Source of the DNA: Azospirillum brasilense
GTDB taxonomy: Bacteria; Pseudomonadota; Alphaproteobacteria; Azospirillales; Azospirillaceae
DNA: 64,000 nucleotides
Direction of reading: 5' to 3'
NCBI RefSeq assembly: GCF_001315015.1
Contig: NZ_CP012915.1
Coordinates: 558,001 to 622,000, forward strand
Under the pieces are notes generated by a model. That model searched no databases and had not been told where the DNA came from. It saw only the letters and a list, made by a program, of their open reading frames with translations. This document shows, in pieces, positions 37,034 to 52,692 of this stretch. The translations under genes were made by a program, and so were the position numbers. The first letter of the stretch is position 1, and every line of letters starts with the position of its first letter.

Positions 37034-38212
37034 TCATTTGCGCCAGAAGCCGAAGAGCCCTTTCTTCTTCGGGGGGGCCTCCGGTTCGGGTTCCAGTTCC
37101 GGTTCCGGCTCCGGCTCGTCGTCGAAGGAAAAGGGATCGTCCTCGGCGTCGGCTTTTGCGGTTCCGGCCGGCCCGGTTTCAGCCTTGGACTCGTCCGGAT
37201 CATCGTCGCTGTCGAAGGAGAACGGGTCCTCGTCCGGTTCCGCATCCGTCTTGGCGGGGAGGGCCTCGGCCGTTTCCTCCGTTTCGTCATCGTCGAAGCT
37301 GAAGGGGTCGCCGTCGTCGGAGTTGTCGGCCGAGTCGGTCGCCTCGGCCGTTTCGTCCTCACTCTTCTCCTCCGTGTCGCCGGTGTCGAAGCTGAAGGGA
37401 TCGCCACCGTCCTCGTCCTCGTCCTCATCGAAGCTGAAGGCGCTGGCGTCACTCCCGCCCGCTTCGTCGTCGTCCTTGGCCTCGTCTTCATCGTCGTCGA
37501 AGCTGAAGGCGGAGAAATCCGAGGATTCTTCCTCTTCGTCGTCGCCACCACCGCCGAGGGCCGTGGCGGCAACGGCGACCGCGCTCGCCGCGCTCTGGCC
37601 GCGGCGCATCTCAGCCTTGAAGCGCTCAAGCTCCTCGCGGAAGCGATCCTCGGCCTCGCTCCAGCGCTGGCGCTCCTGGTCGAGGGTGGCGAGAAGTTCC
37701 TCTTCCCGCTTGCGGGCGGCGGTGCGTTCCGTGTCGAGCGCCTGGATCAGTTCCTCTTGGCGTTGGAGAAGCGACTCGTGCCGCGTTTCCATCGCGTCGA
37801 TGACCTCGCGCACATACTGCTCGAAGGCGCGGAACTGGAGCGCCAGAAGGTCTTCATCGGCGTTGGCTGTCGCTGCGGTGGCCGCCGCCTTCGCGGCCTT
37901 GGTCGCCTTGGTCGTCCGCGTCCCGCTGGGTGCCGGCGGCGGGGAGGGGATTGCTGCGGCAGGGGGCGTGCGCGAACCGGTGGGCGTGGCGCCGTCACCC
38001 CCCAGCCAGCGTGACACCAGAATATAGGAAACCTGAAGCTCCTCCGCGATGCGGCGATAGCTCCAGCCTTGAGCGCGCAGCCGTTCGGCCATGCGCTGGC
38101 GATCCGGCTCCTCGCTGGGCGTCGCCGGGCGCGTGGGCAGGGAGGATGTCGGGCCGATCCCCTCGGTGGGGGTCGCGACGACGATCACATCCTTCAGTTT
38201 CTGGTCGGCCAT
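37034..38212 (-). CDS. HTH/coiled-coil protein with six acidic FSFD repeats and a cationic aromatic C-terminus
   Basis: The 392-residue protein is modular. Residues about 36-71 form a helix-turn-helix of the resolvase/transposase type (MAERLRAQGWSYRRIAEELQ, then VSYILVSRWLGG). A Pro/Ala/Lys linker follows. Residues 120-205 form a strongly charged coiled coil (RHESLLQRQEELIQALDTER). Residues 222-380 are extremely acidic and carry six copies of FSFD (236-239, 259-262, 273-276, 304-307, 331-334, 361-364), the last four as DPFSFD. The chain ends PPKKKGLFGFWRK, a basic aromatic tip. I do not recognise a family. The layout suggests a multivalent scaffold that binds DNA at one end and a partner protein or membrane at the other. 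Confidence 0.75.
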   Translation of the reverse strand: MADQKLKDVIVVATPTEGIGPTSSLPTRPATPSEEPDRQRMAERLRAQGWSYRRIAEELQVSYILVSRWLGGDGATPTGSRTPPAAAIPSPPPAPSGTRTTKATKAAKAAATAATANADEDLLALQFRAFEQYVREVIDAMETRHESLLQRQEELIQALDTERTAARKREEELLATLDQERQRWSEAEDRFREELERFKAEMRRGQSAASAVAVAATALGGGGDDEEEESSDFSAFSFDDDEDEAKDDDEAGGSDASAFSFDEDEDEDGGDPFSFDTGDTEEKSEDETAEATDSADNSDDGDPFSFDDDETEETAEALPAKTDAEPDEDPFSFDSDDDPDESKAETGPAGTAKADAEDDPFSFDDEPEPEPELEPEPEAPPKKKGLFGFWRK

Positions 38213-38370
38213 CGGGTCTCCGCCGTCCTGCGCGCAGGGCGTTCTTTACCGCGATGTTGGCCGCGTTCGGGGGGCGCTGTCGATCCGGGACGGGTCCCGG
38301 TTGAAGCAGTCTGGGAGGGAAACCCGCCGGACCGGGCCAATTCGCGCCGGTCCGGTCCGGTCCGGCCCAG

Positions 38371-39348
38371 TCAGTTCAGTTCCTGGATGTGCTCGACATA
38401 GCCTGACAGGGCGGCGATCCCCTGCTCGGTCAGTTCGATGAAGACGCGGCGGCCGTCCTTCTCGTCGGCAATCCGGCGCACCAGCCCGCGGTCGTGCAGT
38501 TCGGTGATCCGCCGCAGCGCCGTGGTCTGCGCCACGCCGGAGGCCATGCACAGCGACGACACGGAAATCCGCCGCCCGCGCAGATGGTTGGCCATCAGAT
38601 CCAGCAGCATGTCCCAGCAGGGGTCCTCGAACAGCCCCTTTGGAAAATACTTGTCGCGGGCGACGCGGGATTGCTGGAGCGTCCTCAGGACCGCCAGCCG
38701 TTGGTTCTCTCCTGTCGCGGCGGAGGTGGAGGCGGGGGGATTGGGAACCGGGACCGGGACCGGAGCGGCCGCCGCCGGCTGACCATCCCGCAGCGCCTTG
38801 ACCGCTTCGATGAGGGCGAGGCCGTGGCGGTAGGCGTCCTCCAGCGCACCCTGCAACTCGCCATTGCCGGCGGGCGGCGGCGGGGCGGGCAAGGAGGCCA
38901 CCGCCTGATGGGCGGCCAGAGCGCGGGCGAGCGCGCCGTGAAGCTGGCTGCCATCCTGCGGATCGCTGACGAAATCCGCCGCGCGCAGATGCATGGCGCG
39001 GACGACGTCGGCCGCCGTGGCGTTGGGCGCGACGACGATGACCTGGAGGTGCCGCTGCACGCTCTTGCGCATCCGCTCGACCAGTGCCAGCCCGTCGAAA
39101 TGGGGAAGAGCCAACTCCACCGCCACGATGCCGATGCTGCCGTCCGCCTCCAGCGTGTCGAGTGCCGCGATGGGGTCGTGGGTCACATGGATGCGGTGGC
39201 CGTTGCGTTCGAATGCGTCGTGCATGCCGATCCCCAGCGCGCGGTCCGCGCAGGCGATCAAAATGGACGTCGCCGAAACATGAAGGCCGGTGGTGGTCTG
39301 GACCGGGCGCACCGGCCACGCCAAGGGTCGCTCCAACTCGATCCGCAT
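38371..39348 (-). CDS. Receiver-like / winged-helix (MarR-type) regulator with non-phosphorylatable receiver
   Basis: The 325-residue protein combines an N-terminal response-regulator-like domain (about 28-145) with a C-terminal winged helix (about 235-325) containing ISVSSLCMASGVAQTTALRR and the wing GLVRRIADEKDGRRVFIELT. At the phospho-acceptor position the sequence is VAVELALPHFDG, with glutamate 78 instead of aspartate, and the N-terminal acidic pair is also reduced. It may therefore be constitutively active or use another signal. A proline/alanine linker joins the domains. It is divergent from the sensor-MFS-ligase operon and is a paralogue of the protein at 51652-52692, with about 85% identity over the last 89 residues by eye. 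Confidence 0.75.
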   Translation of the reverse strand: MRIELERPLAWPVRPVQTTTGLHVSATSILIACADRALGIGMHDAFERNGHRIHVTHDPIAALDTLEADGSIGIVAVELALPHFDGLALVERMRKSVQRHLQVIVVAPNATAADVVRAMHLRAADFVSDPQDGSQLHGALARALAAHQAVASLPAPPPPAGNGELQGALEDAYRHGLALIEAVKALRDGQPAAAAPVPVPVPNPPASTSAATGENQRLAVLRTLQQSRVARDKYFPKGLFEDPCWDMLLDLMANHLRGRRISVSSLCMASGVAQTTALRRITELHDRGLVRRIADEKDGRRVFIELTEQGIAALSGYVEHIQELN

Positions 39349-39721
39349 CGAAGCCCTTCCCCCGTTGGGTGCATGGAATGCTGTGCTTAAGGATTACCAC
39401 GCAAAGCAAACCATCATGGATGCAATCATGGTCCAAAATAGAGCGATCGATAAATGTCTCAAAATTCCGCAAAAATTCGATGGATTAGGCTAAATGGCAT
39501 AAGACGGCGGAAGAGGGGCGTCGTCTATTCTTGGTTTGATAAGTCAAATTCAACGGATTGCCCTTTTCGGTTGCGGTGCGGTGGGCGAGGGTGCGTGTTC
39601 GGCGGGGTCGGGCCGGAGCGGAGCCATGTCGCCAGGGTCTTCTCCAGACTGGACCCGTCTCGGAAACGGCGGTGCGGGCGATGCGCGTAAGGTGGCCGCA
39701 CCCCTTGCCGGCACCGGACCC
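39349..39721. other. Divergent control region of the sensor-MFS-ligase operon
   Basis: The 373-bp gap between the regulator and the operon has an AT-rich core (39390-39560). It contains a direct repeat ATCATGG (39412-39418 and 39424-39430) and a short inverted repeat TTTGA-taag-TCAAA (39535-39548). An in-frame extension of the downstream gene into 39536-39721 is glycine/serine-rich and is not believed to be translated. No other gene is seen. Confidence 0.5.
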
Positions 39722-40543
39722 ATGCGCCTCACCCTGACGACCAAGATCATTTTGCTGTTGCAGGTGGCGCTCTGTTTCGCGCTGCTCTCCACCGCGGCGC
39801 TCTCCTATCTGAAGATGGAGCGCATGGTGGAGGACACCGTGGCGTCCCGCTTCACCGTCGCCTTGCGCGGGCTGGCGGGGGAGGTGGAGGGCGCCGTCAG
39901 CCTTGGCGTGTCGATCACCGCCCTGCGCAATCTCGACGCGCTGATCCAGCGCGCGATGGCGCGGGACGACCGCATCACCGGTCTGGTCCTGTTCACCGAC
40001 ACGGGCGAGGTGCTGGCGGCGGCGGGCCGGGGGGCGGGACACGGTGGGCCGGTAGGAACGATTCCCGCCGGCTGGAAGGGTGCCTTCGCCCGCGACGGCA
40101 AGTCCGACCGGGTGGCGGCCGTCGCCGACGGCGACAGCCAGGCGCTTCTGCTCGGCATCCGCAACGCCTTCGGCGGCGTCGCCGGCGGCGTCGCTCTGAC
40201 CTATTCACTGGGCGAGGTGCAGGCGGGCATCCGCGGCACCATTCCGGACCTGCTGCTGTCCGGCGGCATCAATCTGGTGACCGGGCTTCTCGTCACCATG
40301 GTCGCGGTCTGGCTGCTGCTGCGTCCGATCCAGCGGCGGCTGCGCGAGATGACCGTCAGCATCAATCAGCTGGGCATGGGCGAGCCGCCCAACCTGACCC
40401 CGGAGCTGGTGGCCTTCGCCCCCGGCCTGAAGGAGTTCGCCGACCGCATCCTGGAACAGCAGCAGCACGGCGCGGAGGAGGACCATCCCCAGCCCGCCGG
40501 TCCGGCGGCGGAAGCCGCGCGCCCGGCGGGAGTCACGCCATGA
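39722..40543 (+). CDS. Membrane sensor protein with periplasmic domain and truncated HAMP-like region
   Basis: The 273-residue protein has a first membrane helix (about 8-30), a periplasmic domain of about 145 residues (DDRITGLVLFTDTGEVLAAA suggests a Cache/PAS-like sensor) and a second helix (about 180-202). A short cytoplasmic part begins RPIQRRLREMTVSINQLGMG, like the first half of a HAMP domain, and ends in a polar tail with no kinase, cyclase or methyl-accepting module. MRLTLTTKIILLL is taken as the start because it leads straight into helix 1; no strong ribosome site is seen. Its stop overlaps the next gene's start (ATGA). It probably partners the HAMP-MFS protein encoded next. Confidence 0.7.
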   Translation: MRLTLTTKIILLLQVALCFALLSTAALSYLKMERMVEDTVASRFTVALRGLAGEVEGAVSLGVSITALRNLDALIQRAMARDDRITGLVLFTDTGEVLAAAGRGAGHGGPVGTIPAGWKGAFARDGKSDRVAAVADGDSQALLLGIRNAFGGVAGGVALTYSLGEVQAGIRGTIPDLLLSGGINLVTGLLVTMVAVWLLLRPIQRRLREMTVSINQLGMGEPPNLTPELVAFAPGLKEFADRILEQQQHGAEEDHPQPAGPAAEAARPAGVTP

Positions 40544-42516
40544 AGCTGTCCTTCATCCGCCGCCTGAACTGGATGCTGACGGGCGTCGTGTCCGTCCTGA
40601 TGCTGGTCAGCCTTGCTGTCCAGACCAACCACGTCAACACGCTGTTCCGCCCGCTGATCGAGCCGGAACTGGCCCGCAAGGCCGAGGTCGTCGGGTCCTA
40701 CGTGGTGGCGCAGATCGACCGCGCGGTGGCGCTGGGCTTCGAGCTGGACAAGCTGGTCGGGGTGGACGAGCTGCTGTCCGACGCGCTGGCCGCCAACCCG
40801 GACGTCAAGTATCTGGCGCTGGAGATCGGCGGGCGCCTCCACGCCTTCTCCGGGACCGAGGAGGCGCGGTCCGGCAGCCGCCTGACCGTGGCCGATGCCC
40901 CGCCGGAGGGCGAGTCCCCGCAATTCCTCGACACCGTCCTGGCGCTGGAGGGCAACGAGGCGGCGCGGCTGCATGTCGGCGTCGATTCCGGCTATGTCCG
41001 CTCGGCCATGAACGAGGTGGTGTTCGACCTCGGCTCCGTGCTGATCGTCGCCATCCTGCTCAACATCGAGATCCTGCTGCTGGTCGTCGGCTCCTCCGTC
41101 GCGGCGCCGCTGCGCCGGGTGACGGCGGTGATGAAGCAGGCCGCCGACGGGCATCTCGGCGTGCGCGTCGCCTCGCGCAACCGCGACGAGGTGGGCGAGC
41201 TGTCGCGCGCCGTCGACTGGGCGCTGGACAGCGTGCAGCACAAGGCCGACATGACCGCCTCCGAGCAGGCCATGACCAAGATCGGCATGATGCAGCGGGT
41301 GGTGGAGCTGCGTTTCGCCATCTTCATCTTCTCCCTGGCGGAGGAGCTGACCCGCACCTTCCTGTCCGTCTACATCAAGCAGCTGTTCGAGCCGGTGCCC
41401 GGCCTGTCGATGGAGATGGTCATCGGCGCGCCCATCGCCCTGTTCATGCTGCTGTGGGCGGTCAGCCAGCCGATCGCCGGCAGCGTGTCGGAACGGCGCG
41501 GGCGGCGCGCCGTCTTCCTCGGCGGGGCGCTGCTGTCCTTTGTCGGTCTGGTCGGCTCCGGCCTCGCCACCGACCTCATCCAGCTCATCGTCGCGCGCTG
41601 CCTGACCGCCGTCGGCTACGCCAGCGTCTTCATCGCCGCCCAGGGCTTCGTCATCGACGCCACCGACCCCAAGCAGCGCGCCCAGGCCATTGCCATGTAC
41701 GCCGGCGGCATCCTCAGCGCCGGCGTCTGCGGCCCGGCCATCGGCGGCGTGATCGCCGGGCAGGTGGGCTTCCGCACGACCTTCCTGATCTCCGCCGGGC
41801 TGGCGCTGCTGGCCGCCTTCATGGCGTGGCAGGTGCTGCCGCGGGTGCGCGCGGCGCAGGGGAAATCCAGCCGCGGCCTGCGTCTGGCCGATGCCGTGCT
41901 GTGCCTGCGCAACCCGCGCTTCGTCGGGCTCGCCGTCTTCAGCGCGGTTCCGGCCAAGCTGGGGCTGACGGCGCTTCTGTTCTTCCTGCTGCCGCTGGCG
42001 CTGGACGACCAGGGGGTCAGCCAGTCCTGGATCGGGCGCGTGCTGCTGCTCTACTGGCTGCTGATGATCGTGGTGTCGCCGATGGCGGCGAAGCTGTCCG
42101 ACCGCTCGGGCCAGCGCGGCGGCTTCCTGGTGGTGGGCGGATTGGTCGCCGCCGGGGCGGCCTGGGTGCTGTCGATGCCGGGTTCGCTCGGCACGGCGCT
42201 GGCCGGAGTCGCCCTGCTGGGGGTGGCGCACGCCATGCTCGGCGCGCCGCAGCTCGCCATGCTCGCCGACGTCTGCGTCAAGGAGCGGGCGGCGCTGGGC
42301 GAGACCACGGTGATCGGCATGTTCCGTCTGATCGAGCGGCTGGGCTCCGTCGTCGCCCCCTTCCTGGCCGGGCTGTTCCTGGCCCATTACGGCTACGCCG
42401 GGGCGCTGAAGGGCATCGGCGCGGTGCTGGCGGCCTGCGTCGCCGTGCAGCTGCTGCTGAGCGCCCTGTTCCGCCCGCGCCCGCCCGCCGACTTCCCGCA
42501 GAGGACCCCCGCATGA
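40540..42516 (+). CDS. Fusion of a transmembrane HAMP sensor with an MFS transporter
   Basis: The 658-residue protein has two clear halves. Residues 1-240 look like the front of a chemoreceptor or kinase: helix 1 (11-27), a periplasmic sensor region (28-160) with DVKYLALEIGGRLHAFSG, helix 2 (163-187) and a HAMP domain (about 184-238) with APLRRVTAVMKQAADGHLGV and RNRDEVGELSRAVDWALD. Residues about 252-650 form a complete MFS permease with 12 helices and a motif-A-like loop (SVSERRGRRAVFLGG). The frame is uninterrupted and overlaps both neighbours by 4 bp, so it is not an assembly join. I infer a transporter whose activity is gated by a periplasmic ligand. Its substrate is likely the product or precursor of the downstream ligase and acetyltransferase. 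Confidence 0.85.
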   Translation: MKLSFIRRLNWMLTGVVSVLMLVSLAVQTNHVNTLFRPLIEPELARKAEVVGSYVVAQIDRAVALGFELDKLVGVDELLSDALAANPDVKYLALEIGGRLHAFSGTEEARSGSRLTVADAPPEGESPQFLDTVLALEGNEAARLHVGVDSGYVRSAMNEVVFDLGSVLIVAILLNIEILLLVVGSSVAAPLRRVTAVMKQAADGHLGVRVASRNRDEVGELSRAVDWALDSVQHKADMTASEQAMTKIGMMQRVVELRFAIFIFSLAEELTRTFLSVYIKQLFEPVPGLSMEMVIGAPIALFMLLWAVSQPIAGSVSERRGRRAVFLGGALLSFVGLVGSGLATDLIQLIVARCLTAVGYASVFIAAQGFVIDATDPKQRAQAIAMYAGGILSAGVCGPAIGGVIAGQVGFRTTFLISAGLALLAAFMAWQVLPRVRAAQGKSSRGLRLADAVLCLRNPRFVGLAVFSAVPAKLGLTALLFFLLPLALDDQGVSQSWIGRVLLLYWLLMIVVSPMAAKLSDRSGQRGGFLVVGGLVAAGAAWVLSMPGSLGTALAGVALLGVAHAMLGAPQLAMLADVCVKERAALGETTVIGMFRLIERLGSVVAPFLAGLFLAHYGYAGALKGIGAVLAACVAVQLLLSALFRPRPPADFPQRTPA

Positions 42517-43565
42517 GCCTGTCCCGCCGCACCGTCCTGACGGGAGCCCTCACCGCTGGAACGCTGGCGGCCAGCGGCGTTCCGGCCCTTGCGCAGCCAT
42601 CCTTCGCTCCGGCGGCCAGGACCTTCACCGCCGCCAAGCCGGCGCGCATCGTCGTGCTGACCCCGCGCAAGGATGTGGGCGACGTGCTGGGCCTGCGCGA
42701 CTTCATCGCGTCGAGTGGCCTGTCCGCCACGGTGGAGGTGCGCGAGGTGCCGCAGGCCTCCGCCATGCCGACGCTGCTGCCGGATATCCGGGCGTCCAAG
42801 CCCGATCTGGTGGTGACCGTCTTCACGCCGCTGACGCTGGGAGCGGTCGGGCGCTATGACGATCCGGACCCGTCGCGTTTCCTGACCGACGTGCCGGTGG
42901 TCTTCACCTCGGTCACCGACCCGGTAGCCTCGCGCGTCGTGCGCGCGCTCGACCGTCCGGGGCGCGCGGTCACCGGCACGCGGCACATCGCGCCGGCCGC
43001 GGTGCAGATGAAGACGATGCTGTCCTACCGGCGCTGGAAGAAGATCGCCGCGGTCTACAACCCGGCCGAGGACAACATGGTCGTCGCCGTGCGCGACCTG
43101 AAGGAGGAGGCCGCCCGCCAGGGAGTGGAGATCCACGACGCCGCGCTGCCGCGCGACGCCGCCGGGGCGCCGCAGGCCGCCGCCATCCCCGACCTGATCG
43201 CCGACGCGGCGCGCGCCGGTGCGGAGCTGGTCTACATCGGTCCGGACACGCTGGTCGCCTCCAACAACAACGCCGTGGTGGCGGAGCAGGCGCTGGCCCA
43301 CCGGCTGGCCACCTTCTGCTCCACCGAGTTGCCGATCCGCCGGGCCAACCTGCTGATGGGGCTGGTCAGCCCGGCCGTCAACGTCGGGCGCTTTGCCGGG
43401 CTGAAGGCGGTGGAGATCCTGACCGGGGCCAAGCCCGCCGACACCATCCCGGTGGAGACTCTGAACCGCTTCTCCCTGCTGCTGCGCATCGGGGCGGCCA
43501 AGCAACTGGACCTCTACCCGCCGATGCGCCTGCTCAACATCGCCGAAATCGTCCAGGACGCCTGA
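42513..43565 (+). CDS. Tat-exported ABC_sub_bind family periplasmic protein
   Basis: The 350-residue protein starts with a twin-arginine signal (MSLSRRTVLTGALTAGTLAA, cleavage near ALA). It then shows the two-lobed fold of the ABC_sub_bind family (YtfQ/TrpX-like): RIVVLTPRKDVGDVLGLRDF, KPDLVVTVFTPLTLGAV, PVVFTSVTDPVASRVVRALD and LVYIGPDTLVASNNNAVVAE. Such proteins bind amino acids or small organic ligands. No ABC ATPase or permease is encoded nearby, so it may instead present ligand to the periplasmic domains of the two upstream sensor proteins. Its start overlaps the HAMP-MFS stop by 4 bp. Confidence 0.82.
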   Translation: MSLSRRTVLTGALTAGTLAASGVPALAQPSFAPAARTFTAAKPARIVVLTPRKDVGDVLGLRDFIASSGLSATVEVREVPQASAMPTLLPDIRASKPDLVVTVFTPLTLGAVGRYDDPDPSRFLTDVPVVFTSVTDPVASRVVRALDRPGRAVTGTRHIAPAAVQMKTMLSYRRWKKIAAVYNPAEDNMVVAVRDLKEEAARQGVEIHDAALPRDAAGAPQAAAIPDLIADAARAGAELVYIGPDTLVASNNNAVVAEQALAHRLATFCSTELPIRRANLLMGLVSPAVNVGRFAGLKAVEILTGAKPADTIPVETLNRFSLLLRIGAAKQLDLYPPMRLLNIAEIVQDA

Positions 43566-43566
43566 C

Positions 43567-44352
43567 ATGACGGTCCTCTTATCCCCCGAACAGACGGTCC
43601 ATACGGGCATGCTGCGCGTCCGGTGCGGCGAGCCGGTCTGCGTTCCCTACCGCATCCGCTTCCTCGGCCCCGCCGACCTGCCGGCGCTGGAGGCGTTCCG
43701 CGGCTACATCTTCGGGCAGTTGCCGGACATCGACGCCTATTTCCCCGAAACGCCGGAGTTCGCCGGTCTGCATCTGGGCGAGCGCGGCGTGACGCTGGGG
43801 CTGGAGGCCGAGGGTCGGCTGATCGGCTGCGCCATCCTGGGCCTGCCGCAGCCGGGCATGCCGGCCTTCGTGGACGATCTGCCGGGCACGCGCCCCGCCG
43901 TCACCGCCACCGCCCATATGGCGAGCTGCATGGTCCACCCGGACTTCCGCGGCAACGGGCTGCAACGGCTGCTGGTGACGCTGCGCACGCTCCACGCGCT
44001 GGGAGCCGGGCGCCCGCACCTGTTCTCGCGCGTCGCCCTGTCCAACCCCCGCAGCCTGGCGAACCTGCTGTCCGGCGGCTTCCTGGTGCGCCAGGTGCTG
44101 GTCATGCACGCCAGCGGCCGGCTGCGCTATCTGCTGCACCGCGACCTGGGGGCGGCGCCGCCCGCCTGGGTGCCGGGCAGCGAGCGCGTCTTCGCCGTTC
44201 CGGAGCTGGACGAGCAGCGGGCGGTGATCGAGGCCGGCTGGATCGGGCATTTGGTGGAACTGGACGGCCCCGTGCCGCTGGTCACCTACGCGCGCCCGGT
44301 GGAGGCGGTGCAGGTCGTAGCCCAGGATGCCGCGCTGGAGGTCACGCCGTGA
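43567..44352 (+). CDS. GNAT-family N-acetyltransferase
   Basis: The 261-residue protein contains a GNAT core in which motif A, the acetyl-CoA pyrophosphate loop, is ASCMVHPDFRGNGLQRLLV (about 119-137). The following helix-strand SNPRSLANLLSGGFLVRQVL resembles motif B. Extra segments before residue 30 and after 195 are not typical of minimal GNAT enzymes. It starts 1 bp after the previous stop and overlaps the ATP-grasp gene by 4 bp. An acylation of the ligase product or precursor, or self-protection by acetylation, is the natural inference from context. Confidence 0.8.
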   Translation: MTVLLSPEQTVHTGMLRVRCGEPVCVPYRIRFLGPADLPALEAFRGYIFGQLPDIDAYFPETPEFAGLHLGERGVTLGLEAEGRLIGCAILGLPQPGMPAFVDDLPGTRPAVTATAHMASCMVHPDFRGNGLQRLLVTLRTLHALGAGRPHLFSRVALSNPRSLANLLSGGFLVRQVLVMHASGRLRYLLHRDLGAAPPAWVPGSERVFAVPELDEQRAVIEAGWIGHLVELDGPVPLVTYARPVEAVQVVAQDAALEVTP

Positions 44353-45602
44353 GCACTCCTCTCAAGACGGCGGTCGTCGTCGATCCCTATTCCACCGGCA
44401 TCCTTCTGGCGCCGCGGCTGCGCGCGCGGGGCTACGAAGTGGTCGCGGTGCAGAGCCGCCCGGACCTCGCCCCGTCGCTGCTGCGCAGTTACCAGCCCGA
44501 CGACTTCGCGGCGCACATCCTCCATGACGGCGACCTCGACGCGCTGGCGAGGACGCTGCGCCCACTGGCCCCGGCCTTCATCCTGCCGGGCAATGAGTCC
44601 GCGGTGGAGTTGACCGACGCGCTGGGCGCCGTTCTGGGCACGCCGGGCAACAGCCCGAAGCTGACCGCCGCGCGCCGCAACAAGTTCATGATGATCGAGC
44701 GGCTGGCCGCCGCCGGCCTGCTGACCGCCCGCCAGACCATGGCGACCGGTGCCGCGGAGGCGGTGGAGTGGGCGGCACAGGCGGGCTGGCCCGTGGTGGC
44801 GAAGCCGATGGCCAGCGCTTCCACCGACCATGTCTATTTCTGCGACACCCCCGCGCAGCTGCGCGCCGCCGTGGACGCCATCCTGGGCAGCCGTGACTTC
44901 TGCGGTTCGGCCAACGAGCGGGTTCTGGTGCAGACCTACCTCGACGGGCTCGAATACGTCGTCAACACGGTCAGCCGCGGCGGGCGCCACTATGTCTGCG
45001 ACGTGCTGCTGTCCGCCAAGCGGGCGCTGAACGGGTCCCCCTTCGTCTACGATTATTACCGGCTCCTGCCGCCGGAGGAACCGGTGGCGCAGGCGTTGAT
45101 GGCCTACATCCGCCGGGTGCTCGACGCGCTGGAGATCACCGACGGCGCCGGCCATGCCGAGGTGCGGATGACCGCCCGCGGCCCGGCGCTGGTGGAGATC
45201 GCGGCGCGCGCCATGGGGCCGGCCGGCTCGACCACCGGCATCGCGGCGGGCACCGGGCACGATCAGGTCGATCTGCTGGTCGATGCCTTCGACGGGGCGG
45301 CGGCGGTCGGGCCGCTGCTCGACGGCCATTACCGGTTCCAGGCCGACGCGATGGTCCTCTATCTGCCGGTTCTCGTGTCGGGCCGGGTGGAGGCTTTGCC
45401 GGACCTCTCCATTCTGGACGGCATGGCGAGCGTGCGCGGCTACGCCCTGGTGCCGCGGGTCGGGGACGAGGTGGTGCCGACGCTCGATCTGACGCAGGTG
45501 CTGGCGAAAATCTATCTGGCGCATCCGGACCGCGCCGTGTTCGAGCGCGACTGGGCTGCCATCCGCTCGCTGGAGGATCGCCTCCAGCCGACCGTCGCGT
45601 AG
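44349..45602 (+). CDS. ATP-grasp ligase resembling L-amino acid ligases
   Basis: The 417-residue protein starts at GTG overlapping the GNAT stop. It has a pre-ATP-grasp domain (1-105) and an ATP-grasp fold. ATP-binding lysines are expected at K112 (ARRNKFMMIERLAAAGL) and K152 (GWPVVAKPMASASTDHVYF). The glycine-rich loop region includes VLVQTYLDGLEYVVNTVS. Magnesium ligands are in GHAEVRMT and LVEIAARAMGP (E271, E283). The C-terminal part (320-417) is like the LAL_C domain. Relatives such as BacD-type enzymes join amino acids through acyl-phosphate intermediates. It is the last gene of the five-gene operon and probably makes a dipeptide-like compound; the substrates are unknown. Confidence 0.83.
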   Translation: MSTPLKTAVVVDPYSTGILLAPRLRARGYEVVAVQSRPDLAPSLLRSYQPDDFAAHILHDGDLDALARTLRPLAPAFILPGNESAVELTDALGAVLGTPGNSPKLTAARRNKFMMIERLAAAGLLTARQTMATGAAEAVEWAAQAGWPVVAKPMASASTDHVYFCDTPAQLRAAVDAILGSRDFCGSANERVLVQTYLDGLEYVVNTVSRGGRHYVCDVLLSAKRALNGSPFVYDYYRLLPPEEPVAQALMAYIRRVLDALEITDGAGHAEVRMTARGPALVEIAARAMGPAGSTTGIAAGTGHDQVDLLVDAFDGAAAVGPLLDGHYRFQADAMVLYLPVLVSGRVEALPDLSILDGMASVRGYALVPRVGDEVVPTLDLTQVLAKIYLAHPDRAVFERDWAAIRSLEDRLQPTVA

Positions 45603-45623
45603 CGTCGGAGCGGACGGGCAGCG

Positions 45624-46397
45624 ATGGCGCATGTCCCCTATGAGCAGCGCTGGGCCGCGGCCCGCAAGCGCTTCGAGGCTGCAACGGCGAAGCATCGGCC
45701 GAAGGACGCCAAGGCGGTCGCCGCCGCGCTGAACGGCGATGCCGCGCTGGTCAAGGCGCTGAAGGCCGGCGACGCCGTCCACCGTGCCGTCACGGCTGGC
45801 GAGGAGGCCGTGAAGGGTCTCGTTGCCGCGGGGAAGGACGCCGTGAAGGCGCGCAAGGCCTATCTGGCCACGCTCGGCAAGGCCTTGGACGAGGATACGG
45901 CAAGCCGTGGCGACAAGGCCGCGGCGACGGCCTGCGAGCGGGCGATGAAGGCGCTCGCCAAGGACCTCGCTGACCTGGAGGAATCCATCGGCGGGGACGC
46001 CGACCGCCTCAAGGCGCAGGCCGCTCAGGCCGAGAAGGACGCCGCCTCGTCGGAGCGCGCGCAGAAGCGGTGGGAGGCGAACATCAACGGCGCGCTCGCC
46101 CGCGCCGCCGCAGGGGTCGCCAAGGTGCGCGCCAAGCCGACGCCGGATACCTACAACGAGCTGTTCCCGGCGCTGGCCCGCGATCTCGCCACCCAACTCG
46201 CCGCGGCGAAGGCGCTGGACGGGCTGCGCGCCGATCCCGACTTCTACCGCCGGAAGCTCGCCCCCTGGGCCGGGCAGGGCGGCGACGGGCCGCCGATGCG
46301 CGTGCCGCCAGACTACACCGCCCGCCAGATCACCGACCTCATCAAGGAGTTCGCCACCGTCTGCAAGGGTGTGGTGCAGCTGGTGGGCGGCCGCTGA
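45624..46397 (+). CDS. Hypothetical Ala/Lys-rich coiled-coil protein
   Basis: The 257-residue protein is mostly helical with long charged heptad-like stretches (KDLADLEESIGGDADRLKAQ, AQAEKDAASSERAQKRW). It then has a more conserved-looking end with TYNELFPALARDLATQL and YTARQITDLIKEFATVCKG. It has no signal peptide or membrane helix. It lies 21 bp after the ATP-grasp gene but with a weak ribosome site, so it may be an extension of that operon. Its C-terminal segment resembles that of the next gene product. No family is recognised. Confidence 0.65.
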   Translation: MAHVPYEQRWAAARKRFEAATAKHRPKDAKAVAAALNGDAALVKALKAGDAVHRAVTAGEEAVKGLVAAGKDAVKARKAYLATLGKALDEDTASRGDKAAATACERAMKALAKDLADLEESIGGDADRLKAQAAQAEKDAASSERAQKRWEANINGALARAAAGVAKVRAKPTPDTYNELFPALARDLATQLAAAKALDGLRADPDFYRRKLAPWAGQGGDGPPMRVPPDYTARQITDLIKEFATVCKGVVQLVGGR

Positions 46398-46545
46398 AGC
46401 GAGGCGGGGAGCGAAGCCGCCGTTTTGGACCCATTCGGTTCCGGTAGTGGTGGGAGAGGAGCAATCGCCGATTCCGAGGGGCGCGCCCGCCTCCTACCAT
46501 GCAGGCCGATAGGGTGAATGTTTGGTTAAGCGGAGGAGCTGAGAC

Positions 46546-47307
46546 ATGGGTGGTCCCCTGAAGCGCATCGACATCCCGGACATCCTGACCCAGAAGGACT
46601 GGGACAAGAAGAAGGGCGCCATCGCCAAGATCGCCGGCAAGACCGGTGTCGGCGATGCGATGAAGGCGGTCGACAAGGCGCACGGCGCCATCGACTGGAA
46701 GAAGCTGAGCGTGTCGGTGAACGCGCCCAGCAACGCGACGCTGGACGATCTCGACTCGCTGCTGGACGAGGCGCGGGCGGAGTACAAGCGCTCGGTCGAG
46801 CCGCTGCGCACCCAGCTCCAGAAGCTCCGCGACTTGGCCGAGGCGACGGCGAAGAAGTTCAAGTCGAACAAGCTGATCCCGAAGGACTCTGCCGCCCACG
46901 CGGAGAAGGTGGCAAAGACCGCCGATCAGCTCTTCGTCGCCTTCAACCAATCCTCGCTCGGCGACAAGATCGTCGATGACTATGAAGGCATGAAGGACGC
47001 CATCGAGAAGGCCGACAAGGTGCGCGCCAAGGGGCGGGAGATTCTTGAAAAATACATGCTGTCCCTGGCGAAGAAGCTGAAGACGGCAAAGACGGTGGGC
47101 GATTACCAGGACCTGTGGAAGGAAGACATCCGCGGCGTCGGCACCCAGCTGCCGAAGATGCCGGAGCTGAAGGCTTTCCTGAAGGATTGGCGCAACATCT
47201 CCTCCCAGGACGGCATCCCGGAGACCGACGAGGACGTGAAGAGCCGCTGCAAGGAGGTGATGGCCGTGCTCGCCCGCATGGACAAGCAGATGAAGGCCAT
47301 GGCCTGA
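46546..47307 (+). CDS. Hypothetical lysine-rich helical protein, distant paralogue of its neighbour
   Basis: The 253-residue protein starts at an ATG 7 bp after GGAGGAG. It is highly charged and helical (LDDLDSLLDEARAEYKRSVE, SAAHAEKVAKTADQLFVAFN) without export signals. The segment TVGDYQDLWKEDIRGVGTQL aligns with TPDTYNELFPALARDLATQL of the upstream protein (shared T, Y, L, R and TQL at the same spacing), so the two genes probably arose by duplication. Some features (a helical bundle, a soluble charged surface) recall structural or effector-partner proteins. The function is unknown. A strong hairpin follows at 47361-47398. Confidence 0.68.
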   Translation: MGGPLKRIDIPDILTQKDWDKKKGAIAKIAGKTGVGDAMKAVDKAHGAIDWKKLSVSVNAPSNATLDDLDSLLDEARAEYKRSVEPLRTQLQKLRDLAEATAKKFKSNKLIPKDSAAHAEKVAKTADQLFVAFNQSSLGDKIVDDYEGMKDAIEKADKVRAKGREILEKYMLSLAKKLKTAKTVGDYQDLWKEDIRGVGTQLPKMPELKAFLKDWRNISSQDGIPETDEDVKSRCKEVMAVLARMDKQMKAMA

Positions 47308-47763
47308 CCGTATTCAGCGCCGCGGCCCGTCGGGTGCCATCGGCTGCAAAGGGGTGGGAGCGTCCGGAAGTTCGCCTGTGTTCAGGCGGTTCCGGACGTT
47401 CTGCCTATTAGCGATCTCTGTTGAAATCACCACGTTCGGTCGTCAGCGCCAAGTACGGGCCGCATCCTCGATTGCGTGGTTAAAGCCACATTTTCTATAG
47501 GATTTACGATTGATGAAGCTTGTCGTGAATTTCTGAGTCGTTGTTGCGCCGATGGCTGATTATACTTCGCAGCATGGCCGGTTTCGGTTTCATGGGGTTT
47601 CGGCTTTAAATGCCTTGGTGCATCGGTATTTCCGCAGCAACCGTTTTGCGATACCTCTCATGATGGGCTTGGCTGAAGGCCATTCGACCTGCGGGTCGGG
47701 CTGCGGCCTGTGCCACGCGCCTGTCGAAGGAACTGTGCCCCGGTGCTTCCGCCGCCTGCCGTC
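47308..47763. other. Intergenic region before the hybrid histidine kinase gene
   Basis: Besides the hairpin at 47361-47398, this 456-bp region holds an AT-richer stretch (47400-47660) that probably contains the kinase promoter. A 74-codon open frame at 47552-47776 overlaps the kinase start and looks non-coding. I see no RNA gene or repeat. Confidence 0.5.
47361..47398 (+). terminator. Long hairpin, probable terminator
   Basis: CGTCCGGAA (47361-47369) pairs with TTCCGGACG (47390-47398), and inside it CGCCTG pairs with CAGGCG around TGTT. This gives an almost continuous 15-bp stem 53 bp after the previous stop. The tail TTCTGCC is only weakly T-rich. Confidence 0.55.
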
Positions 47764-50622
47764 ATGCCGTCCGTAACCGCCATTATTGCGCGTCTCGCCC
47801 GACGGTTGGGCGCGGTTTTGCTCTTCGCTCTTCTTTTCACCACTCCGGCCCTGGCCACGGTCCTGCCGCAGGCGGAGCGCGGCGTGCTCGATCTGCGCGG
47901 CTGGTACGCGGACCTCGACGGACCGGTGTCGCTGGACGGCGAGTGGCTGGTGTCCTGGGACCGTTTGGCCGGTGAGGAAAGCCTGAACCCGCTGCCGGAA
48001 CCGGACGGACGAATCTGGACGCCATTTACCCTGCCGGCGATCTGGAACGGCGCCGAGCGCCCGGACGGGCAGGAGATGGGCGGATTTGGCGCCGCCACCT
48101 TCCGCCTGAAGATTCTGCTGCCGCCCGGCATGCCGCCGCTGACGCTGAAGATGCCGCCGGTCAATTCGGCCATGCGGGTGTGGGTGGACGGCCGCTCGGT
48201 CGCCGCCGCCGGGGTTCCGGCCCTGGCCGCCGCGCAGGAGCAGTCCTCCTCCGTCTCCCGCTTCGTCACGCTGCATGGCGGCCAGCGGGTGATCGAACTG
48301 GCGGTGGAGGTCTCCAACCACTTTCATTTCGAGGGCGGGATCGGGCGCACGATCTATCTCGACGCCAACGGTGGGCTGTCGCGGCTGTGGCAGCGGCAGT
48401 TGATGACCAACGCCGGGGCGTTGATGTCCTTGTCCCTGATGGCGTTGTTCATCGGCGCCTTCCTCCGTCGGCGCCTCTCGGCGGCCCCGCTGTTCCTGGT
48501 CATGCTGCTGGCCGCCTGCGCCATGCGGCTGATCTGCACCAGCGAACTGCTGCGCGTCTTCTTCCCCGGCGTGTCGGAGGTGTGGGCCTACCGGCTGGAA
48601 TATCTGCCGATCTACATGTTCTACCCGATCTACTTCCACTTGCTGCGCGAGCTGTTTCCCGGATGCCTGCACCGCGGGGTGGGGCGTGCCATGATGGCGG
48701 TCGCGGTGCCGGGCATGTTCCTGGTGCTGGTGACCGAACCGGCGCAATTCACCCGGTTGCGCGACGTGGCGAGCCTGCTGCTGGTGCTGTCGGCCCTGTA
48801 CTTCGCGTGGCGCCTCACCGTCGCCGCCCTGCGTCGCCATTCCGGCGCGCTTCTGCTGGGGGCGGGGGCACTCGCCTTCCTGGGATCGGTGGTGCACGAC
48901 GCGCTGATGTACGCGCATTTCTTCGAGAGCATCGACCTCGTGCCCTACGGGGCGCTGCTGTTCCTGTTCGGCCACGCGCTTGTGCTGGGGCGGCGGGTGG
49001 AGACGGCCTTCCTCAATGAGCGCCGGCTGTCGCAGGAACTGGTCGCCCTCAACGAGGGGTTGGAACTCCAGATCGCCGAACGCACCCGCGCCCTGTCGGA
49101 CAAGTCCGCGACGCTGGAACGCTTCCTCGCCAACCTCAGCCACGAGGTCCGGACTCCGCTGAACGCCATTCTGGGCATGGTGCGGGTGATCCGTCGCGAG
49201 GGGGCGACCGACCAGTTGGACGAGCGGCTGCGCGTCGCGGACGGAGCGGGGCGGCACCTCGTCTCCATGCTCGACACCATCCTCGACCTGTCGCGCCTGG
49301 AGGCGGGCCGGATGGAATTGCACCCCCAGCCCACCGACGTGGTGGCGCTGGTCGAGGACGCGGTGGCGCTGATGCGCGCGGGCGCCGAGGAGAAGGACCT
49401 CGCCCTGTCCCTGACGGTCAGCGGGCTGGGGGCGGAGCGCTTTTGGATCGATCCATTGCGCTTGCGCCAGATCGTTCTGAACCTGTTGAGCAACGCCGTG
49501 AAATTCACCGAACGCGGCGGGGTGGAGGTGACACTGACCGCCAGGCCGCCGCCGCCGGATGCGGCCAGCGGGACGGTCGTCCTATGCCTGACCGTGGCGG
49601 ACAGCGGTCCCGGTGTGCCGCGGGCGGCGCAGGGCATCATCTTCGAACCCTTTCATCGGCTGGAAGGAACCCGCCTGGAGGGCAACCGCCGCGACGGCGC
49701 CGGCCTGGGTCTCGCCATCGTGAACGGGCTTGTCCGGCTGATGGGCGGCGACGTTTGCCTGGAAGGCAGACCGGGCGGCGGCTCCCTCTTCACGGTCTCG
49801 CTGGCGACACGTCCACTGCCGGTGGCCGATCCGTCGCCGGACCGCGCCGCTCCCATGCCGGTGCCGGGAAGCCTGGACATCCTGGTGGTGGAGGACGCGC
49901 CGGAGAACCAAGCCATCCTTCGGGAGTATCTGGCGCCCGGCGGCCACCGCGCCGTCTATGTGGAGAGCGGGGAGGAGGCCTTGGCGGTTCTGGCGGCCAG
50001 GACTGTGGATGTCGTGCTGCTCGACATGCGGTTGCCGGGCATCGATGGGGTGGAGGTGACGCGGCGCATCCGCGCGTTGCCCGACGCCGAACGGGCGCTG
50101 GTGCCGGTGATCGCGGTGACCGCCAACAGCTCGCCGGAGGACCGGGCGGACTATCTGGAGGCCGGCGTGGACGAGGTGGTGGCGAAGCCGGTGGACCCCG
50201 ACGCGCTTCAGGACGCGCTCGCCCGCCACGCGCCGTCCGGCTCGTGCGCGCCCGCTCCGTCCTTTGCGGTTCAGGGGGCGCCGCTCACCGGGAGACCGGT
50301 CACGGGCGGGCTCTCCAGCGCCGACCGCGCGCGGTTGATGGATCGCTTTGCCCAAGCCTGCCGGGATGTGCTGGCGGTTCTCGATGATGAGGACTCGCCG
50401 CCCCGGCGGGTCGTCGACGCGGCCCACCGCATGAAGGGCAGCGGCGGCACCTATGGATTTCCAGAGGTGAGCGCCGCGGCGCGGGCGCTGGAGCGGACGG
50501 CGCAGGCCGTCGAAAGCGGGAGCGGGGGGGCCGCTTCCATGCAAGGGGACACGGCGGCGCTGCGGGACCGGCTTCACGCCGCTCTACGCGCCATCGAAAA
50601 GGGGGAGGCGGGACTGACATGA
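47764..50622 (+). CDS. Hybrid sensor histidine kinase with 7TMR-DISM sensor, receiver and HPt domains
   Basis: The 952-residue protein starts with a signal peptide (ending TPALA) and a periplasmic beta-sandwich sensor (about 30-190). Seven membrane helices follow (about 200-410), as in 7TMR-DISM receptors. The transmitter has the phospho-accepting histidine 460 in ANLSHEVRTPLNAILG, the N box NLLSNAVKFTERG, DSGPGVP and GAGLGLAIVNGLVRLMGG. A receiver follows with aspartate 754 in VVLLDMRLPG, then an HPt domain with histidine 888 in AAHRMKGSGGTYG. Phosphate should pass H460-D754-H888 to the response regulator encoded 49 bp downstream. Periplasmic carbohydrate-like ligands are usual for this sensor type. 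The start at 47764 is chosen for the signal peptide; 47710 would add a cysteine-rich leader. Confidence 0.93.
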   Translation: MPSVTAIIARLARRLGAVLLFALLFTTPALATVLPQAERGVLDLRGWYADLDGPVSLDGEWLVSWDRLAGEESLNPLPEPDGRIWTPFTLPAIWNGAERPDGQEMGGFGAATFRLKILLPPGMPPLTLKMPPVNSAMRVWVDGRSVAAAGVPALAAAQEQSSSVSRFVTLHGGQRVIELAVEVSNHFHFEGGIGRTIYLDANGGLSRLWQRQLMTNAGALMSLSLMALFIGAFLRRRLSAAPLFLVMLLAACAMRLICTSELLRVFFPGVSEVWAYRLEYLPIYMFYPIYFHLLRELFPGCLHRGVGRAMMAVAVPGMFLVLVTEPAQFTRLRDVASLLLVLSALYFAWRLTVAALRRHSGALLLGAGALAFLGSVVHDALMYAHFFESIDLVPYGALLFLFGHALVLGRRVETAFLNERRLSQELVALNEGLELQIAERTRALSDKSATLERFLANLSHEVRTPLNAILGMVRVIRREGATDQLDERLRVADGAGRHLVSMLDTILDLSRLEAGRMELHPQPTDVVALVEDAVALMRAGAEEKDLALSLTVSGLGAERFWIDPLRLRQIVLNLLSNAVKFTERGGVEVTLTARPPPPDAASGTVVLCLTVADSGPGVPRAAQGIIFEPFHRLEGTRLEGNRRDGAGLGLAIVNGLVRLMGGDVCLEGRPGGGSLFTVSLATRPLPVADPSPDRAAPMPVPGSLDILVVEDAPENQAILREYLAPGGHRAVYVESGEEALAVLAARTVDVVLLDMRLPGIDGVEVTRRIRALPDAERALVPVIAVTANSSPEDRADYLEAGVDEVVAKPVDPDALQDALARHAPSGSCAPAPSFAVQGAPLTGRPVTGGLSSADRARLMDRFAQACRDVLAVLDDEDSPPRRVVDAAHRMKGSGGTYGFPEVSAAARALERTAQAVESGSGGAASMQGDTAALRDRLHAALRAIEKGEAGLT

Positions 50623-50671: not shown

Positions 50672-51421
50672 ATGAGCGTCGGATCGGAGCTGGTCGGGCG
50701 GACCGTGCTGGTGGTCGAGGATTCTCCCGAAACGCAGGATTTGATTGCCACTTATTTGGAGCACCAGGGGTTGCGGGTGCTGCGGGCCGCAAACGGGGCG
50801 GAACTGACGGAGCGCATCGCGCAGGATCGGCCGGACCTTGTGCTGCTCGACATCAACCTGCCGGATTGCGACGGGCTGGCCCTTGCCGAGCGGCTGAGGC
50901 TGGGGGAAACCGTTCCGCTGATCTTCGTGACCGGTCGCGACAGCCCGACCGACCGCATCGCCGGCCTGTCCCACGGCGGCGACTATGTGACCAAGCCGGT
51001 CGACCTGCTGGAATTGCTGATCCGCATCCGCAATCTGCTGCGCCGCTCGGGGGCATCCGCGAGTCCGTCCGTGCCCGCCGAAAGCGCCGCGGTTCCAGCG
51101 CCCGACGCGCCGCTTGCCTTCCGGGGTTGGCGGCTGGATCTGGTGCGCCGTGCGCTGTTCCGTCCCGACGGTTCCTATCTCGCTTTGACGACGGGGGAGT
51201 TCAATATCCTGGCGGCATTGGCGGCCATGCGGCCCAACCCGGTCAGCCGCGAATATCTGCTGGACGTGATCAGCAACCGCGACCCGCGCTCCATCAGCGA
51301 GCATACGGTCGATACGTTGATCACCCGGCTGCGTCGCAAGATGCGGCTGGATGACGGCGCGGCCTCGCCGATCGTTACCGTCCGTGGGGTCGGATATGCA
51401 TTGGAATCTGACGAATCTTGA
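50672..51421 (+). CDS. OmpR-family response regulator
   Basis: The 249-residue protein has a receiver domain (VLVVEDSPETQDLIATYLEH, phospho-acceptor aspartate 60 in LVLLDINLPDCDG, FVTGRDSPTDRIAGLSHGGD, lysine in YVTKPVD). A proline/alanine linker leads to an OmpR-type winged helix ending IVTVRGVGYALESDES. It is the partner of the upstream hybrid kinase, receiving phosphate from its HPt domain. The combination resembles TorS/TorR. Targets are unknown; the palindromes at 51472-51502 directly downstream are candidates. Confidence 0.92.
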   Translation: MSVGSELVGRTVLVVEDSPETQDLIATYLEHQGLRVLRAANGAELTERIAQDRPDLVLLDINLPDCDGLALAERLRLGETVPLIFVTGRDSPTDRIAGLSHGGDYVTKPVDLLELLIRIRNLLRRSGASASPSVPAESAAVPAPDAPLAFRGWRLDLVRRALFRPDGSYLALTTGEFNILAALAAMRPNPVSREYLLDVISNRDPRSISEHTVDTLITRLRRKMRLDDGAASPIVTVRGVGYALESDES

Positions 51422-51651: not shown

Positions 51652-52692
51652 ATGCAACGGTCCCTGGTTTCGCGTTCGGCGGAGCGTATCGCGCTGGCTG
51701 GTCAAACGGCGGCGGGTTGCCCAGCACCGAGTTACACGGCGGCACCTTCCATTCTGATCATCGGCAACGACAGCGCGGCTATCGTCGGCATTCGTGACTG
51801 TGCCCTGCGGCTCGGTCACCAGGTGCAGGACACGCGCGACGTGATCTCGGCGCTGGGCCTGCTCGACGTGGACCGCAGCGTCGGCGTCGTGTTCGTGGAT
51901 GGTGGGTCGCCCTGGTTCGACGGGCTGGCGCTGATGGAGCGGCTGCACCGCACCCATCGCGGCCTCGCCTGCATCCTCTTCGCCCGCAACCCCGAGGCGG
52001 ACGATGTGGTGCGCGCCCTGCGGCTGGAAGCTGCCGACGTGGTCACCGACCCGGAGGATGAGGCGCAGATCGAACGCGCGCTCGCCCGCGTCCTCAACGG
52101 CGGGGAGGGGATCGCCTCGTCGGCCCCGCATCGGTCGCCGGTGTCGATGGGCAGCCATGACGACGCGCTGGAGCAGGCCTACCGCCATGGGTTGGCGTTG
52201 GTCGAGACGGTGCGCGCCTTGCGCGGAGAGGCTGCGGCGGCCCGCGTGATGCCCTTCGTCGCGGCCCATCGCGCGGCCGCGGCACCAGCAACCGCTCCTG
52301 CTGCAATCGCAACCGCGGTTCACCCCGATTGCGAAGCGGCGGCCGAAGGCGGCGCGCCGGACAGCCTGGGCATTCTGACGGCGATCCGGCGCAAGCGCGC
52401 CGCCCGCGAGAAGTTTTTCCCCAAGGGCCTGTTCGAGGATCCCTGCTGGGACATGCTGCTGGACCTGATGATCAACCATCTTCAGGGGCGGCGGATTTCC
52501 GTGTCGTCGCTGTGCATCGCATCCGGCGTGGCGCAGACCACGGCGCTGCGCCGCATCACCGACCTGCACGACCGCGGGCTGGTCCGTCGCATCGCCGACG
52601 ACAAGGACGGGCGCCGCGTCTTCATCGAACTGACCGAAGAGGGCGTCGCCGCCATGGAGCGTTACGTGGAGACGGTCGGCCCGCTGGGCTGA
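51652..52692 (+). CDS. Receiver-like / winged-helix (MarR-type) regulator, paralogue of 38371-39348
   Basis: The 346-residue protein has an N-terminal receiver-like domain (about 33-150). It keeps aspartate 83 at the phospho-acceptor position (VVFVDGGSPWFDG) but has only part of the acidic pocket (ILIIGNDSAA). A linker with alanine/proline repeats follows. The C-terminal winged helix (about 255-346) includes ISVSSLCIASGVAQTTALRR and GLVRRIADDKDGRRVFIELT and is about 85% identical by eye to the paralogue 13 kb away, so the two should recognise similar DNA. No kinase is adjacent on the same transcript, but the hybrid kinase/OmpR pair lies just upstream. Confidence 0.75.
   Translation: MQRSLVSRSAERIALAGQTAAGCPAPSYTAAPSILIIGNDSAAIVGIRDCALRLGHQVQDTRDVISALGLLDVDRSVGVVFVDGGSPWFDGLALMERLHRTHRGLACILFARNPEADDVVRALRLEAADVVTDPEDEAQIERALARVLNGGEGIASSAPHRSPVSMGSHDDALEQAYRHGLALVETVRALRGEAAAARVMPFVAAHRAAAAPATAPAAIATAVHPDCEAAAEGGAPDSLGILTAIRRKRAAREKFFPKGLFEDPCWDMLLDLMINHLQGRRISVSSLCIASGVAQTTALRRITDLHDRGLVRRIADDKDGRRVFIELTEEGVAAMERYVETVGPLG

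Follow-up and report, generated by a model that had tools for sequence, protein, structure and literature searches.

A sensor, transporter and binding-protein cassette with exchangeable enzyme genes in Azospirillum brasilense and its relatives

Binding proteins feed ATP-binding cassette (ABC), tripartite ATP-independent periplasmic (TRAP) and tripartite tricarboxylate (TTT) transporters, as well as some receptors, and fusions of the TRAP subunits DctQ and DctM occur. In the major facilitator superfamily (MFS), motif C is typical of antiporters, and UhpC is a member that acts as a receptor without pumping. On the enzymatic side, N-acetylglutaminylglutamine synthase joins a GNAT and an ATP-grasp domain in one protein and, with an amidotransferase partner, makes an acylated dipeptide. 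Here we analyse a five-gene operon of Azospirillum brasilense, with genes named A to E. It lies in a 64-kb stretch of DNA, hereafter the window (bases 558001-622000 of contig 2 in a 6.59-Mb genome), and its 5881 bases are 100% identical to a stretch in the Azospirillum brasilense record NZ_CP032340.1. We found that its core is a three-gene cassette, A-B-C, with D and E as exchangeable cargo. In window coordinates, the genes are as follows.

39722-40543, plus strand: A, 273 amino acids (aa), a single-Cache sensor with two transmembrane helices, homologous to the N-terminal sensor of B
40540-42516, plus strand: B, 658 aa, a transporter laid out as transmembrane helix, sensor, transmembrane helix, HAMP and MFS domain
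42513-43565, plus strand: C, 350 aa, an exported solute-binding protein of the ABC_sub_bind family with a twin-arginine N-terminus
43567-44352, plus strand: D, 261 aa, a GNAT acyltransferase, cargo gene
44349-45602, plus strand: E, 417 aa, GTG start, an ATP-grasp ligase of the L-amino-acid-ligase/DdaF type, cargo gene

The genes overlap by 4 bp at A/B, B/C and D/E and are separated by 1 bp at C/D. Checks of the open reading frames (ORFs) and Pfam matches bear out the five plus-strand genes, their order, overlaps and domain assignments as given in a first-pass annotation of this DNA.

A search of the GTDB genome collection with the E protein gave 15 loci (loci are numbered L and genomes G below). 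The complete A-B-C-D-E series is present in 14; in the fifteenth, L022, the contig begins inside B, and C, D and E are present. The five genes still lie together in the Azospirillaceae metagenome-assembled genome (MAG) locus L021, in the order C-D-E-A-B, and two genomes of another family (L086, L087) have them in the same order as the window at 33-57% protein identity. In the family to which the window belongs, matches to E at E<=1e-20 occur in 24 of 82 genomes, and the 21 genomes with a match of at least 66% identity (own genome included) carry C and D beside E in short loci. Across a sample of the class, E matches at E<=1e-60 were found in 8 of 385 genomes, three of them at the cassette (own genome, G244 and G341).

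The cassette extends well beyond E. We built a profile of the sensor-HAMP-MFS junction of B from one of our alignments (A8) and applied it at E<=1e-25, which gave matches in 21 of the 385 class-sample genomes and 7 of 398 phylum-sample genomes, own genome included, and in 3 of 274 genomes of a further class around G597. Among 67 cassette loci, a separate A lies beside B in 61, and C adjoins B in 64, two of the three exceptions being contig ends; 43 loci have D and 16 have E. Six loci show no separate A: L152 and L160 end at or near B, and the other four have A fused to B. These counts leave out the window and the loci L022, L101 (a sensor pair with a SpoIIE gene and D but lacking C), L105 (from the genome that also contains L021), L088-L092 and L103 (where only relatives of E occur); they include 14 E-type rows from Azospirillum and close kin and 21 other Azospirillum rows, which are not independent. 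Neighbourhoods were annotated with profiles of A to E and home-built neighbour profiles (SpoIIE, STAS, HATPase, formyltransferase, PanB, Ddl and others) made from 1-4 sequences each. Gene calls in the fetched loci are mechanical, with some starts over-extended, and short contigs (L096, L115, L138, L143, L151, L152, L160) make the cargo and SpoIIE counts lower bounds.

E is thus absent from 51 and D from 24 of the 67 cassettes. The first-pass annotation had treated the five genes as one system, which we abandon, since A-B-C recurs without D or E. It had also stated that homologous operons lacking both enzymes in most genomes would speak against its proposal of a peptide-like product; most cassettes do lack E, while D is missing from only a minority. 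Such losses do not rule out small-molecule chemistry, because the cargo found elsewhere again consists of small-molecule enzymes. Of the 21 non-E Azospirillum loci fetched, 20 have A-B-C-D at another genomic place, and the remaining one (L175) has A-B-C with a formyltransferase. Further formyltransferase genes occur in L102 (between B and C), L139 and L141. Other lineages carry Ddl-like ATP-grasp genes (L097, and two genes each in L146 and L147), PanB-like genes (L140, L142), other GNAT genes (L137, L144), an alanine racemase gene (L145, and L149 by a profile made from the L145 gene) or an aldolase-like gene (L152, judged by its sequence without a library profile). Altogether, one or more of the enzymes looked for occur in 18 of the 30 loci that are neither E-type nor from Azospirillum.

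In a tree of 41 hand-chosen B sequences, whose root serves for drawing only, the eight E-bearing cassettes form one clade (100/100) that adjoins an A-B-C-D clade (fork 95/91), and by this tree the E form of the cassette has one origin. The two PanB-type loci pair at 100/99 and the two double-Ddl loci at 100/100. The four formyltransferase types are not united in the tree: support for the pairing of L102 with L175 is weak (89/63), and L139 and L141 fall in other parts of it. D is scattered over several branches. Cargo follows cassette lineage in part.

The sensor parts of A and B are related. A reaches no Pfam family above cut-off and has two hydrophobic segments; comparison of its profile with that of the B sensor, using the original alignments, gave an hhalign probability of 95 (E 1.9e-8). 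This homology rests on those original alignments, as a later iterated A profile recruited B N-termini (76 hits, second round) and is not independent. An AlphaFold2 model of A, of modest confidence (mean pLDDT, the predicted local distance difference test score, 67.6; pTM, the predicted template-modelling score, 0.48), shows a single Cache domain between two transmembrane helices, and Foldseek placed the WalK and CitA sensors nearest to it, an answer at the level of fold only. In B, Pfam recognises HAMP (37.1 bits, cut-off 25, residues 184-233) and MFS_1 (166.3 bits, cut-off 33.4, residues 259-585). No curated NCBIfam family reaches its cut-off for B among the best 25 of 59 matches, the highest being TIGR00880 (multidrug resistance) at 78 bits against a cut-off of 131. 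B carries motif A-like and motif C-like stretches, variably kept across 11 aligned rows. The latter reads GVCGPAIGG in the window, with GP in 8 of 11 rows and GG in 10 of 11 (alignment A6), and resembles the GxxxGPxxGG pattern of antiporters in transmembrane helix 5, which favours export for B.

In four loci A and B are a single ORF (L094:5729-8206, L095:5270-7720, L155:6046-8940, L177:4329-6749), in which two Cache-type sensors stand in tandem before the MFS domain. Because these fused loci come from three genera in two families, the fusion probably arose more than once.

C matches ABC_sub_bind at 88.1 bits (cut-off 25.9), and its N-terminus opens with an SRR stretch of the kind found in twin-arginine signals. 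It is only distantly related to the tryptophan-binding protein TrpX (NF041285, 78.3 bits against a cut-off of 390), and we discarded that assignment. Membership of an ABC transporter was likewise set aside, as a Pfam scan covering ten proteins of the window (37034 to 50619) found no ABC permease or ATPase.

D is a GNAT by Pfam (Acetyltransf_1, 25.2 bits, cut-off 20.7). Its model (pLDDT 71.8) retrieves GNATs with Foldseek (best E 1.2e-5, TM-score 0.44 by query length), again a match of fold only, and its profile matched no PDB sequence at E<=0.01. E matches ATP-grasp_4 (46.5 bits, cut-off 27) and exceeds the subfamily cut-off of PRK07206 (325.9 bits against 302). Its profile finds the PDB entry 30vh, 'L-amino acid ligase', at E 8.4e-97, followed by other L-amino-acid ligases and, more weakly, BacD. 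The lysines of RNK and V-x-KP, a glutamate pair and the E-x-x-A-R arginine are conserved in 8 of 8 aligned rows; these are the residues that ATP/Mg binding and catalysis are expected to need. By profile E falls in the L-amino-acid-ligase/DdaF branch, in line with the ligase-like ATP-grasp enzyme of the first-pass annotation, and D and E together probably build a small amino-acid-derived molecule. Relatives of E also occur apart from A-D: in L088, L089 and L090 they lie beside what read as membrane-transporter genes, and in L092 the E relative is fused to an Acetyltransf_6 GNAT domain (Pfam), another pairing of ligase and acyltransferase.

The natural reading of A-B-C is a sensor-gated MFS protein with a periplasmic binding protein, and conserved adjacency, A-B homology, repeated fusion and cargo chemistry argue for a receptor-transporter unit for small metabolites. 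We propose that A and the N-terminal half of B, as homologous single-Cache sensors, would pair in the inner membrane, where periplasmic C may dock and present a ligand to them. The signal would pass through the second helix and HAMP of B to the MFS domain and set its transport activity, this domain being most likely a proton-coupled exporter. In the E clade, the acyltransferase D and the ligase E would synthesise the substrate for export, which is probably an acylated amino acid or a molecule resembling a dipeptide, and its periplasmic level may feed back on its export. Sister clades have this receptor design linked to a SpoIIE phosphatase/STAS partner switch. To this explanation as a whole, in which the A-B Cache receptor and C would gate export of an amino-acid-derived D/E product with feedback, we assign a probability of about 0.4.

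The link to SpoIIE is a property of the relatives, not of the window, as is that to type VI secretion, and neither could be seen in the first-pass annotation. Around the cassette of many relatives lies a second sensor pair together with genes for a SpoIIE phosphatase, a STAS protein and, in some, an HATPase_c_2 kinase; with the home-built profiles, SpoIIE was found near it in 25 of the 67 loci. We compared SpoIIE and cassette positions, by eye, in 33 genomes with a cassette or sensor-pair locus, which were chosen after SpoIIE had been seen in several loci; G055 was dropped (its locus L101 lacks C). Of the 32 genomes left, all of whose SpoIIE genes were considered, 17 have one no more than 12 kb from the cassette, where 0.58 would be expected; counted by genus the figures are 11 of 21 and 0.56, so that we reject chance co-location. 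Because genomes of one genus are not independent, the tail probabilities calculated from these counts are too small. Nine of the genomes have a single SpoIIE, which in six is the one at the cassette. The second sensor pairs have a weak MFS match or none, and in L146 the second B-type sensor is fused to HAMP-SpoIIE. A second, divergent sensor pair also lies beside two E-type cassettes (L086:14314-16973, L087:448-3095), and in the E-bearing L022 a SpoIIE gene lies two genes from E. The home-built profiles found no SpoIIE, STAS, HATPase_c_2 or type VI match in the 64 kb of the window.

Type VI genes (VgrG, TssK) lie beside the cassette in 13 of the 21 non-E Azospirillum loci. In these (L098, L099, L104, L161, L164-L172) the cassette comes after VgrG-DUF6931-TssK genes, and 10 of them have SpoIIE and STAS within the fetched stretch, past a second sensor pair. 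Genes resembling VgrG also occur next to the cassette, or no more than about 6 kb away, in L153, L154, L159 and the E-type MAG locus L021.

As to the neighbours of the operon itself, the first-pass annotation had its five genes right and missed two that may go with them:

45624-46397, plus strand: d1, 257 aa, possible sixth operon gene, no family
38371-39348, minus strand: divergent protein with a response regulator (RR) and a MarR winged helix-turn-helix domain, candidate regulator of the operon

d1 starts 21 bp 3' of E, is kept in 13 of the 15 related loci and is probably the sixth gene of the operon; Pfam gave nothing above cut-off for it and NCBIfam nothing at E<=0.01. In 14 of the 15 loci the RR-MarR gene accompanies the operon; outside this set, it has no match in L086 or L087. 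Immediately 3' of the operon, d1 and the gene at 46546-47307 are two lysine/alanine-rich genes without a family. They are followed by a hybrid histidine kinase with 7TMR-DISM, receiver and Hpt domains (47710-50622), and past it by a response-regulator-like gene (50672-51421) and an apparent RR-MarR paralogue (51652-52692), read as such from its match in L008. Near six E-type cassettes, we found a gene for a predicted pentameric ligand-gated ion-channel protein, recognised by its Neur_chan_LBD domain (Pfam finds it in L016 and L022, a profile in the remaining four); in L016 it adjoins a UPF0114 protein gene. The positions are:

L016:826-1767, plus strand: ion-channel-like gene, Neur_chan_LBD
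L017:808-1749, plus strand: ion-channel-like gene, Neur_chan_LBD
L018:467-1513, plus strand: ion-channel-like gene, Neur_chan_LBD
L019:616-1569, plus strand: ion-channel-like gene, Neur_chan_LBD
L020:504-1457, plus strand: ion-channel-like gene, Neur_chan_LBD
L022:3978-4931, minus strand: ion-channel-like gene, Neur_chan_LBD (Pfam)

Several findings weigh against feedback-controlled export of a D/E product. MFS motifs do not prove direction, and in known transporters binding proteins are at least as compatible with import. Many cassettes lack D and E, which could have been added later and have a role of their own. Of the 8 class-sample genomes with an E-like protein at E<=1e-60, 5 have no A-D in the surrounding 16 kb. 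None of the searched enzymes was found in 12 of the 30 loci outside the E type and Azospirillum, six of them contigs of at most 6.2 kb and six stretches of at least 9 kb (L150, L153, L154, L159, L176, L177). HAMP looks missing from the fused B of L094 and L095 (a gap in the profile match, with no Pfam HAMP in L094), the B-like protein of the second L086 pair matches MFS only weakly (34.2 bits against a cut-off of 33.4), which would suit a receptor, and the seven SpoIIE copies of the window's own genome lie at least 300 kb from the operon or on another contig.

These points lead to other explanations. It is possible, though unlikely, that the MFS domain of B is a receptor or transceptor that does not pump, so that A-B-C would be sensory, acting through SpoIIE/STAS or, in the clade of the window, through the divergent RR-MarR protein, and D and E would modify a protein or a signalling compound. 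The SpoIIE, STAS and HATPase_c_2 genes beside so many cassettes, the fused sensor of L146, the second pairs with little or no MFS match and the linkage of the RR-MarR gene in 14 of 15 loci would all fit such a role; in the main cassette, however, the MFS domain of B is full-length, and the window operon has no direct output domain. SpoIIE linkage and the Cache sensors with HAMP, all signalling parts, argue in turn against A-B-C being a binding-protein-dependent MFS importer analogous to TRAP, in which C would deliver the substrate, A and B would be the small and large subunits, and D and E would use or detoxify the import. The motif C-like stretch typical of antiporters tells against it too, and we consider it distinctly unlikely, even though a binding protein with small and large membrane subunits, natural A-B fusions like those of DctQ and DctM, the near-constant adjacency of C to B and the lack of ABC partner genes around the window operon are what such an importer would present. 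A very unlikely explanation, in our estimate, is that D and E entered the operon as a detoxification or antimetabolite pair unrelated to it, with a product that has no connection with A-B-C. The apparently single gain of E and its absence from most cassettes would agree with this, as would the E relatives of 28-42% identity that occur without A-D in all six 16-kb stretches examined; yet E stayed with the cassette in 15 loci (one cut inside B), in L086 and L087 and in the reordered C-D-E-A-B MAG, and other lineages carry cargo of comparable chemistry. Export gated by A, the B sensor and C remains our preferred reading.

A broader proposal, to which we give a low probability, is that of a chemical communication system: exchangeable enzymes would make an amino-acid-derived signal, the Cache-HAMP-MFS protein and its Cache twin would release and perceive it with the binding protein, and in relatives the read-out would run through SpoIIE/STAS, in some cases beside type VI genes. 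Each part of the cassette belongs to a known family, and the combination is apparently a new design as far as searches of the open-access literature go, none of which listed a description of it; the first-pass annotation had likewise named no described system of this kind. Beside ABC, TRAP and TTT, an MFS transporter that works with a binding protein and a twin Cache sensor would represent another arrangement, one that occurs in the class of the window and in further classes of the same phylum. If this is correct, Cache/HAMP input can act on a transporter. The cassette also offers candidates for undescribed small-molecule products, including that of the E-clade ligase in the plant-growth-promoting A. 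brasilense and, in relatives, signals with a possible bearing on type VI secretion.

Compared with known systems, E comes closest to the DdaF/L-amino-acid ligases (PRK07206; PDB 30vh, 3vot, 4wd3 and BacD), being above the subfamily cut-off and aligning nearly full length with 30vh. It is not assigned as DdaF itself, the dapdiamide A synthase equivalog (NF041595, 207.5 bits against a cut-off of 840), and its neighbours, A-B-C and a GNAT, differ from those of dapdiamide clusters. The pairing of GNAT and ATP-grasp recalls N-acetylglutaminylglutamine synthase, whereas D and E are separate proteins whose Pfam and NCBIfam matches are to other models. The RsbU/RsbV/RsbW partner switch (SpoIIE, STAS and HATPase_c_2) has its counterparts in genes that flank the cassette in many relatives but were not found in the 64-kb window. 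With the Cache-HAMP receptors (histidine kinases, chemoreceptors and SpoIIE sensors, with the WalK/CitA fold) B shares the layout of transmembrane helix, Cache, transmembrane helix and HAMP, whereas its output domain is an MFS transporter instead and A has no output domain. Finally, the TRAP and TTT transporters likewise encode a binding protein together with a small and a large membrane subunit, which are fused in some genomes; A and B have no Pfam match to DctM/DctQ or TctA/TctB, and here the large subunit is an MFS protein and the small one a Cache sensor.

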